From positions 1-61,612 of the forward strand of contig JABLXD010000008.1 in assembly GCA_013178285.1 (NCBI GenBank): 61,612 nucleotides of DNA, read 5' to 3'. Both the position numbers and the translations under genes were made by a program. Positions 12,092-14,335 of this stretch are shown piece after piece. The notes under the pieces were generated by a model. That model ran no database searches. It was not told where the DNA came from and was given only the letters and a program-made list of their open reading frames with translations. Origin of the DNA: Methanofastidiosum sp. (GTDB taxonomy: Archaea; Methanobacteriota_B; Thermococci; Methanofastidiosales; Methanofastidiosaceae). Each line of letters opens with the position of its first letter. Positions within the stretch are counted from its first letter, which is position 1.

Positions 12092-12619
12092 ATGAAAATA
12101 ACTAGAAATGATGACATGAAAATGCTTTCATCACTTGACGAATGGGAGCTAATTGACCTTTTACTATTTAATATCAAAAATCTCTGGAGAGTTGACGGGC
12201 TTTACTTTTTGGAGATAGAAGAAAAATTTGGGGTGGAGGCTGCAACAGATATAGATGTCAAGTGCTGGGAGTATATAGCAAAGATAGAAGCCAAATATCT
12301 AAAGCAAATGTTTTCTCTTGAATCAAATCTTGAAGGTCTTGGCAAGGCGTTGAGATTAACTAGCTGGGCCCTTGACCACCCCTCTAAAGAAATAGAACTA
12401 AAGGAGGATCTACTAGTATTTCGTATAACTGATTGCCATACACAAAAAACTAGGAAAGAAAAAGGATTCCCAGAGTTTTCATGCAAAAATGTAAGATTCA
12501 ATTATCTAAAAATCTTTGTTGAAAATTTCTCTCCAAACATCGACGTATGCTGCAAGATATGCCCTCCAGATGAACGTCCGGACAACATTTGGTGTGAATG
12601 GCATTTTAAAATGAAATAG
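12092..12619 (+). CDS. Conserved archaeal protein, DUF6125-like, Cys-rich C-terminus
   Basis: The protein has 175 residues. The N-terminus has SLDEWELIDLLLFNIKNLWRVDGLYFLEIEEKFG, followed by ID-x-x-CWE and EA-K-Y-L segments. The C-terminal third has a C-x-T-x-K-x-R-x-x-K-G-x-P-x-F-x-C-K pattern and ends C-C-K-I-C-P-P-D ... W-C-E-W-H-F. This matches what I recall of a DUF6125-type family in euryarchaea. The conserved cysteines suggest metal or Fe-S binding. No enzymatic role is known to me. A small zinc-ribbon gene follows 50 bases downstream in the same direction and may be co-transcribed. Confidence 0.55.
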   Translation: MKITRNDDMKMLSSLDEWELIDLLLFNIKNLWRVDGLYFLEIEEKFGVEAATDIDVKCWEYIAKIEAKYLKQMFSLESNLEGLGKALRLTSWALDHPSKEIELKEDLLVFRITDCHTQKTRKEKGFPEFSCKNVRFNYLKIFVENFSPNIDVCCKICPPDERPDNIWCEWHFKMK

Positions 12620-12669
12620 GGATAGAAAAGGTTAAAAATAAGGTTAACCTAAAATTTGAAAGTGAGAAT

Positions 12670-12831
12670 ATGGCTACTTGGAAAAATACTTCAAATGATA
12701 TAGTCAAATGTCCTAAATGTGGCTTTGTCTTTTCAAAGCAGTATTCAAGGGTTATTTCATGCAAAACATGCCCAATGGCAACATCAGGATGTGTATTGAT
12801 AAAGTGCCCCCGATGTCAGGAAGAGTTCTAA
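12670..12831 (+). CDS. 53-residue zinc-ribbon protein
   Basis: ATG at 12670 opens a 53-codon frame ending TAA at 12831. The product has three cysteine pairs: CPKC (residues 14-17), CKTC (31-34), and C41 with CPRC (46-49). This is a pattern of two small zinc knuckles around the segment ISCKTCPMATSGC. It is all soluble and basic. A weak purine-rich ribosome-binding site (AAAGTGAGA) precedes it. The regular Cys spacing makes chance unlikely. It could bind nucleic acid or act as a small metal carrier; no specific family is recognised. Confidence 0.7.
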   Translation: MATWKNTSNDIVKCPKCGFVFSKQYSRVISCKTCPMATSGCVLIKCPRCQEEF

Positions 12832-12880
12832 TCTTTGAATAAATACAGATATTATTCCTAGTAGTTATTATAATACCGAA

Positions 12881-13018
12881 AAATATATAAAGAAGGGTAT
12901 AAAAAATTTTATGGGGGAGAGATTATATTCCGATTATGATTACCCTCCTTTATGTCCAAAAGATTCCATCAGGATTTGCCCTTTGGGCTCTCTCCTCCAA
13001 AAAACGGGGTAGATACAT
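12881..13018 (+). promoter_or_regulatory. TATA promoter and structured leader or upstream reading frame before the CoA-ligase gene
   Basis: A TATA box (atatataaa, about 12881-12889) predicts a transcript start near 12911. From there GGGGGAGAGA (12913-12922) can pair with TCTCTCCTCC (12989-12998) over 10 pairs with one G-U. A GCCC-TTT-GGGC hairpin (12978-12988) directly abuts the 3' arm. The same stretch is also an open frame of 33 codons (ATG 12911, TAG 13010). It lies in the same frame as the ligase, so only one TAG separates the two. It may be a regulatory RNA, a leader peptide or a read-through extension. Confidence 0.45.
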
Positions 13019-14335
13019 TTGCAATATTGGGATGAAAAGATAGAAACGATGAAAAGGGATGAACTGGAAGCATTCCAGTTAAAACATCTTAAAAACATAT
13101 TGAATCATGCGTATAACAATAGTGAGTTCTATAGAAATAGCTTTAGAGCCGCTGGAGTATCCCCAGAGGATATCAAGAGTCTTTCTGACCTCGATAAACT
13201 TCCAACGATTAAAAAGGACGACATTCGAAAAGATCAAGAAGCTACTCCTCCGTTAGGTAAGATGACCGCAGTATCTGAAGATGACGTAGTATACATCTCA
13301 GTTTCAAGTGGCTCTACAGGGATGCCCACGGCTTCCCCTTTCACCTTTCAAGATTTTGAAGACTTCATGGATTTTGAAGCAAGGTTATTTTATTCGTCAG
13401 GAATGAGAAAAAATGATAGATACTGCCATGCATTGAATATGTCTCTATTTGTTGGAGGGCCATGTGTTTTGGGCGCTCAAAAGATTGGAGCCTTGTGTAT
13501 TCATGCCGGAACTATCCCCTCAGAAAGATTACTTAGGATAATGATGCAGTTCCAGCCAACTATTACTTGGACAACACCATCCTATGCCTGGTATCTTGGT
13601 GAAACTGCAGAAAAACAAGGTATTGATGTGGCACATGATACGGCAATAAATAAAATCTTTGTTGCAGGAGAGCCGGGTGGCTCTATCGGGGCTACAAAAA
13701 AGAGAATCGAGCAACTTTGGGATGCTGATGTTTATGATTACTACGGTCTTTCTGATATATTTGGAGCTTGCGCTGGAGAATGTGAGGAGAAGGCAGGCCT
13801 CCACTTTGCAGAAGACCACATGATTGTTGAAGTTCTTGATTTAAAAACTGGTGAGCCAGTCGGTGAGCATGAAGAGGGAGAAATGGTATTAACAACTGTC
13901 AAGAAAATGGCAAGACCCATGATAAGATTTAGGACTGGTGACTTAGTATCCTATGAAGATGAAAAATGTTCTTGCGGTAGAACTCATAAGAGACTATTGG
14001 GAATATGTGGAAGAACAGACGACATGCTCATAATAAAGGGAGTTAATGTATTGCCCTCAAGTGTCGAGCCAGTAGTAAGGGGTAACAAAAAGCTTTCTGG
14101 AGAATACAGGCTTGTAGTAGATAGAGTTAATCACCTTGACGTCTTAACTATTGAAATTGAAAGTAGTTGTGAATACAAAGGAGATCAAAAACTATTACAA
14201 AGTGAAGTACAACGTGACCTCAGAGCTGTTTTAGGCATAACTCCAAAAGTAATAGTTTATGAAGACGGTACATTGCCAAGAGAAACGCACAAAGCAAAAA
14301 GAATTAAAGATAATAGAAAGAACGTCTGGAAATAA
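13019..14335 (+). CDS. Phenylacetate-CoA-ligase-like adenylate-forming enzyme (TTG start)
   Basis: The protein has 438 residues of the PaaK type. The ATP-binding loop is SVSSGSTGMPT near residue 98. A mid-protein DYYGLSDIFG aligns with the family's Y-G-x-(S/T)-E position, with aspartate in place of the usual glutamate. The adenylate motif is RFRTGDLV, and the hinge is GRTDDMLIIKGVNV. A CSCGR pair may bind zinc. It activates an aryl or acyl acid to its CoA thioester. In archaea such enzymes work with indolepyruvate oxidoreductases in amino-acid catabolism, but none is adjacent here. TTG at 13019 is the only usable start before the in-frame TAG, and the N-terminus (QYWDEKIETM) fits the family start. 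Confidence 0.85.
   Translation: MQYWDEKIETMKRDELEAFQLKHLKNILNHAYNNSEFYRNSFRAAGVSPEDIKSLSDLDKLPTIKKDDIRKDQEATPPLGKMTAVSEDDVVYISVSSGSTGMPTASPFTFQDFEDFMDFEARLFYSSGMRKNDRYCHALNMSLFVGGPCVLGAQKIGALCIHAGTIPSERLLRIMMQFQPTITWTTPSYAWYLGETAEKQGIDVAHDTAINKIFVAGEPGGSIGATKKRIEQLWDADVYDYYGLSDIFGACAGECEEKAGLHFAEDHMIVEVLDLKTGEPVGEHEEGEMVLTTVKKMARPMIRFRTGDLVSYEDEKCSCGRTHKRLLGICGRTDDMLIIKGVNVLPSSVEPVVRGNKKLSGEYRLVVDRVNHLDVLTIEIESSCEYKGDQKLLQSEVQRDLRAVLGITPKVIVYEDGTLPRETHKAKRIKDNRKNVWK

Follow-up and report, generated by a model that had tools for sequence, protein, structure and literature searches.

The window analyzed here is a stretch of 61,612 nucleotides of Methanofastidiosum sp. (assembly GCA_013178285.1, contig JABLXD010000008.1) and represents one contig of a 2.1 Mb genome that is 97% complete. 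It carries a gene for a CoA ligase with the Pfam domains AMP-binding and AMP-binding_C_2, the closest named relatives of which are found in Methanofastidiosum MAGs (87-92% identity) and the best solved relatives of which are phenylacetate-CoA ligases; the protein scored below the curated cut-offs of named equivalog families. The gene starts with TTG, and this start codon is kept in the genus (9/9 leaders). Sister-family homologues start mostly with ATG, at the residue matching this TTG, and a G-rich Shine-Dalgarno sequence followed by TTG is a recurrent combination within the window. Upstream of the ligase, a DUF6125 gene (12092-12831 in the window) is present in every locus reaching that far, as is a gene for a 53-aa CxxC (zinc-ribbon-like) protein except in L005, where none was detected. 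Gene order downstream of the ligase varies, and in L004 and L006 a MvhA-type hydrogenase gene, not the TfrAB-like pair, adjoins it. The ligase region of L006 is also locally duplicated and contains ambiguous bases (N) (L006:3001-4441), which is probably an assembly error. The genome also has an IOR gene and a chorismate synthase, both on contigs other than that of the ligase, and aryl-acid salvage might be possible. The features identified at the locus are the following:

12854 to 12877, plus strand: conserved block ATTCC..AGTTATnnTAATACC, located 5' of the TATA box in the alignments of leaders.
12884 to 12891, plus strand: TATA box TATATAAA, invariant in nine genomes.
12898 to 12904, plus strand: AT-rich TATAAAA element, spanning about -15 to -9 relative to the predicted start (9/9 genomes, 15-16 nt before P1).
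12913 to 12922, plus strand: 5' strand of helix P1, GGGGGAGAGA (nine inner pairs, 81/81 cells paired in nine species; kept in models R1 and R2).
12940 to 12957, plus strand: near-invariant core of 18 nt, UUACCCUCCUUUAUGUCC (2.5% divergence across nine species).
12961 to 12977, plus strand: hairpin P2, AGAUUC (12961-12966) with GGAUUU (12972-12977), 52/52 cells paired.
12978 to 12988, plus strand: hairpin P3, GCCC (12978-12981) with GGGC (12985-12988), 35/36 cells paired.
12989 to 12998, plus strand: 3' strand of P1, UCUCUCCUCC; CTCTCCTCC is invariant in nine genomes.
13006 to 13012, plus strand: Shine-Dalgarno region GGGGUAG (GGGGTnGAT does not vary among the nine genomes and lies 7-8 nt upstream of TTG).
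13019 to 14335, plus strand: PaaK-type AMP-forming CoA ligase gene with TTG start (PF00501 and PF14535).

The 10-bp pairing between 12913-12922 and 12989-12998, with one G-U among its pairs, had been recognized in the initial annotation of this DNA together with a second hairpin stacked on it, and both are present: the second hairpin is P3, which directly adjoins the 3' strand of P1. A further hairpin, P2, had been overlooked and lies directly before P3. Taken alone, the folding energy of the window leader is unimpressive and uninformative, with a minimum free energy z-score of 0.26, and 24 out of 500 shuffled versions of the sequence also have a helix reaching 10 bp or more. The significance of the fold comes from the comparison of nine species.

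Nine distinct leaders were compared, namely those of the window, L002-L006, L008, L012 and L013. According to searches with a covariance model, the leader precedes the orthologous ligase in nine of the ten genomes of the genus, with one copy per genome, and the tenth genome (76% complete) has neither ligase nor leader. Searches at the level of genus, order, class and phylum, including 105 other genomes of the phylum (115 in all), detected no additional copies, and the leader is absent before the ligase paralogue of G004 (L025) and before sister-family ligases (62-66% identical). It looks like a gain within the genus, tied to one gene; the link is consistent, as in structured cis-regulatory leaders, since all nine copies are found before the ligase. 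Exact matches to the core in five viral contigs and in one class-level genome (G021) were discarded as not corresponding to the element, G021 giving no match to the model. The paralogue in G004 (L025:1501-2214) is 75% identical to the ligase, but the match is limited to residues 1-239 of 438, and there is a TAA within it. In one of the leaders (L012:309-448, genome G005) there is a 29-nt tandem duplication of the core (ATGATTACCCTCCTTTATGTCCAAAAGA), resulting in two core copies inside P1, which is either a natural variant or an assembly artefact.

The mean pairwise difference among the nine species, calculated on a structure-anchored alignment, was 0.06 and 0.00 in the P1 strands, 0.025 in the core, 0.11-0.20 in P2, 0.11 in the P3 strands and 0.05 in the Shine-Dalgarno region, versus 0.59 and 0.36 in the two hairpin loops and 0.37-0.44 in the linkers; at fourfold-degenerate sites of the ligase the species differ by 0.58 (58%). 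Constraint therefore tracks the stems, the core and the Shine-Dalgarno sequence. Three pairs of P2 vary (GU/AU/GC, UA/UG and UG/UA), each change being compatible with pairing, and P3 shows a G-C to A-U replacement in L013, also readable as a one-base deletion, and a C-G to U-G change in L012. Changes in variable pairs are mostly one-sided (GU/AU/GC, UG/UA, CG/UG), with at most one double, compensatory change (that of P3 in L013) and a nearly invariant P1. Covariation showed no excess over the shuffle control on the model-fitted alignment and is thin because P1 hardly varies. The consensus fold was compared with that of column-shuffled alignments, giving z-scores of -4.8 for the whole leader and -5.8 from P1 to P1 on the hand-anchored alignment. 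Because P2 and P3 had guided the construction of this alignment, and one of the duplicated L012 units was missing from it, the same rows were realigned automatically with MAFFT in three versions, which gave z-scores of -3.9, -3.7 and -2.8. Secondary structure is thus conserved in this 5' UTR across species (z from -2.8 to -5.8, with 97-100% of stem cells paired).

The predicted promoter is placed in a constant manner with respect to this structure, the distance from the start of TATATAAA to P1 being 29-30 nt in 9/9 genomes. In archaea there is a usual spacing between TATA box and transcription start; based on this and on the 29-30 nt distance, the RNA would have its 5' end at P1 or within two bases of it, so that transcription would start around 12911-12914. 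This makes plausible the 5' end that had initially been predicted. The block at 12854-12877 is taken as part of the promoter and might serve as the site for a regulator. A 15-nt promoter pattern gave an exact match, followed by an identical TATA box, upstream of a single further gene (L072), and the matches in total showed no excess over a reversed-pattern control. This gene (L072:1501-1562, G000:C1:241812), the product of which is a small protein of 115 aa (MKKIAIVAYTDEIG...), shares with the ligase the promoter block AGTTATATTAATACC plus AAAAAATATATAAA and has only a short leader.

Taken together, we consider it reasonably probable that the region is a structured, non-coding 5' UTR with its own promoter that controls translation of the ligase by masking its Shine-Dalgarno sequence. 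In a transcript starting around 12911-12914, the first ten or so nucleotides would constitute the 5' strand of P1, which would close a junction containing hairpins P2 and P3 and the near-invariant, single-stranded core. Positions 12940-12946 of the core (UUACCCU) could then pair with GGGGUAG at 13006-13012 across P1, forming an H-type pseudoknot that would keep ribosomes from loading at the weak TTG start, its release allowing translation of the ligase. Conservation at the RNA level suggests that the junction and the core bind something, and a metabolite (in which case the leader would be a riboswitch) or a protein might shift the balance between the masked and free forms. The pairing between core and Shine-Dalgarno is kept in 62/63 cells, the one broken pair being in L008, with an A/U-rich linker of 6-8 nt and a duplex energy of about -8 kcal/mol in 8/9 leaders. 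The pseudoknot is not statistically established by these figures, since the Shine-Dalgarno sequence is also complementary to the 3' strand of P1 and to 12974-12982 (80/81 cells), both of them conserved, and a 7-bp match to it occurs in 72% of leader shuffles. In 9/9 species, the fold closed by P1 either has the lowest energy or exceeds the lowest by at most 0.2 kcal/mol, which makes masking of the Shine-Dalgarno sequence in that fold the likeliest reading, with the pseudoknot as first candidate. The anti-Shine-Dalgarno sequence was assumed here, because no archaeal 16S rRNA was found in the assembly to which the window belongs.

The same strands could also work as a two-state switch based on nested alternative helices, with no need for a pseudoknot, an explanation that deserves attention and that we regard as clearly less probable. 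In the off state, the 5' strand would pair with the CCUCC located at 12944-12948 in the core, and the 3' strand of P1 with the Shine-Dalgarno sequence (UCUCUCC with GGGGUAGA), while formation of P1 in the on state would leave the Shine-Dalgarno sequence free. The alternative 5' helix is kept in the nine genomes (45/45 cells), unconstrained consensus folding yields the nested fold as its minimum (-41.5 versus -41.3 for the P1 fold), and the two folds tie in the window at around -26.5 kcal/mol. However, the P1 fold is favored by 1.4 to 7.4 kcal/mol in each of the remaining eight species, even before adding the energy of the pseudoknot, and the second pairing may arise automatically from the presence of two purine-rich and two pyrimidine-rich strands.

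A little further down in probability is the idea that a protein, such as the ligase itself or an RNA-binding regulator, binds to the leader and represses or activates translation, with no small-molecule ligand involved. The presence of a single copy per genome, associated with one gene and within a narrow taxonomic range, would be in line with such a role, as would a short, near-invariant and single-stranded core, but no regulator gene is linked to the leader, and sequence data do not separate a protein site from a ligand-binding RNA. A constitutive role of the fold at the 5' end, in which it would stabilize the mRNA or keep basal translation low without any regulation, seems rather unlikely. 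The location of P1 at the predicted first nucleotide, as for a 5'-protecting stem, and the weaker TTG start codon in 9/9 would agree with it, yet the 18 nearly invariant unpaired nucleotides of the core and their complementarity to the Shine-Dalgarno sequence would be left unexplained.

The initial annotation had also considered two coding explanations. In the window there are indeed 33 codons, from the ATG at 12911 to 13009, followed by a single TAG (13010-13012) before the ligase start, the separation between TAG and TTG being six bases and not seven. This ATG is absent in 5/8 relatives and the 33-codon frame is shifted or stopped in 8/8; single-base indels, those breaking the frame being located in the core and the linkers, disrupt all reading frames, so that none is kept in all nine leaders and a conserved leader peptide or attenuator was discarded. 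A minus-strand open frame at 12940-13098 was also rejected, its extent not being the same in the relatives. A second short frame, MITLLYVQK..., is located at 12937-13044 of the window. That the leader encodes a regulatory peptide, be it from the ATG at 12911 or from the one at 12937, is very improbable. The close relatives L002 and L003 have MEERxYSDYxYPPLCPKDS in common and a start of the type M(I/L)TLLYV(Q/R)K exists in 7/9 leaders, but the second frame has no ATG in L002 or L005, carries a frameshift as well in L005 and stops at varying places, after 10 to 35 codons, and the third codon positions of the core are nearly invariant, which corresponds to constraint on the RNA rather than on a protein. 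Read-through of the TAG at 13010, for example as pyrrolysine, to give an N-terminally extended ligase can practically be dismissed: the open frame that would allow it exists in the window itself only, one base is missing between TAG and start codon in 8/8 relatives, which places the TAG out of frame with the ligase, no PylS over the TIGR02367 cut-off was found in the ten genomes of the genus (the control set was over cut-off in one genome), and the sister-family proteins begin at the residue equivalent to the TTG. A structured, riboswitch-like leader is therefore the only one of the three explanations originally put forward that survives.

Comparison of 12840-13080 with Rfam 15 (4227 families) gave no match at the gathering score, the best one reaching 12.3 bits versus 53 required. 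The leader belongs to no Rfam family, and the best reading is that of a new, genus-restricted orphan structured leader, possibly an orphan riboswitch. The preQ1-II and SAM-II riboswitches are translational riboswitches with a pseudoknot that masks the Shine-Dalgarno sequence. The leader described here resembles them in its 5' UTR position, in having a helix whose loop holds hairpin material, in the A-rich linker and in the putative downstream pseudoknot strand, which would contain the Shine-Dalgarno sequence; unlike them, it is archaeal, limited to one genus, carries two hairpins inside the loop and has no sequence match in Rfam. In the literature consulted, few riboswitches have been predicted in archaea and fewer validated (PMC11549558; PMC2864571). 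The fluoride (crcB, RF01734) and TPP classes occur in both bacteria and archaea (PMC2864571), and the archaeal fluoride switch, named as the native archaeal example, has been validated (PMC11549558). These are also native cis-regulatory RNAs in archaeal mRNA leaders, but they differ from the Methanofastidiosum leader in gene, sequence and fold, and the latter shows no Rfam match to them. It has more in common with the orphan riboswitch candidates derived from comparative genomics (PMC2864571; PMC10043782), in that it is a conserved structured leader with a consistent gene association and an orphan ligand, although its range is much narrower, the sequences are far fewer and covariation is weaker. 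No papers on riboswitches in Methanofastidiosum were found in the literature consulted.

A review on the ligands of riboswitches includes CoA among the compounds for which no class has been validated, and suggests that there may be switches for CoA derivatives, though rare ones (PMC10043782). As a tentative and rather speculative proposal, the leader could represent a new genus-specific riboswitch class that senses the acid substrate or the acyl/aryl-CoA product of the PaaK-type ligase and acts through the Shine-Dalgarno pseudoknot. Few native archaeal cis-regulatory RNAs have been validated and none of the Rfam families covers the Methanofastidiosum leader, which is compact and lies where the mRNA is predicted to begin, ahead of one enzyme gene only. 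Since a concrete scheme of pairings is available for it, its function is directly testable. Were it to bind the ligase substrate or an acyl-CoA, a recognized gap among riboswitch ligands would be filled.
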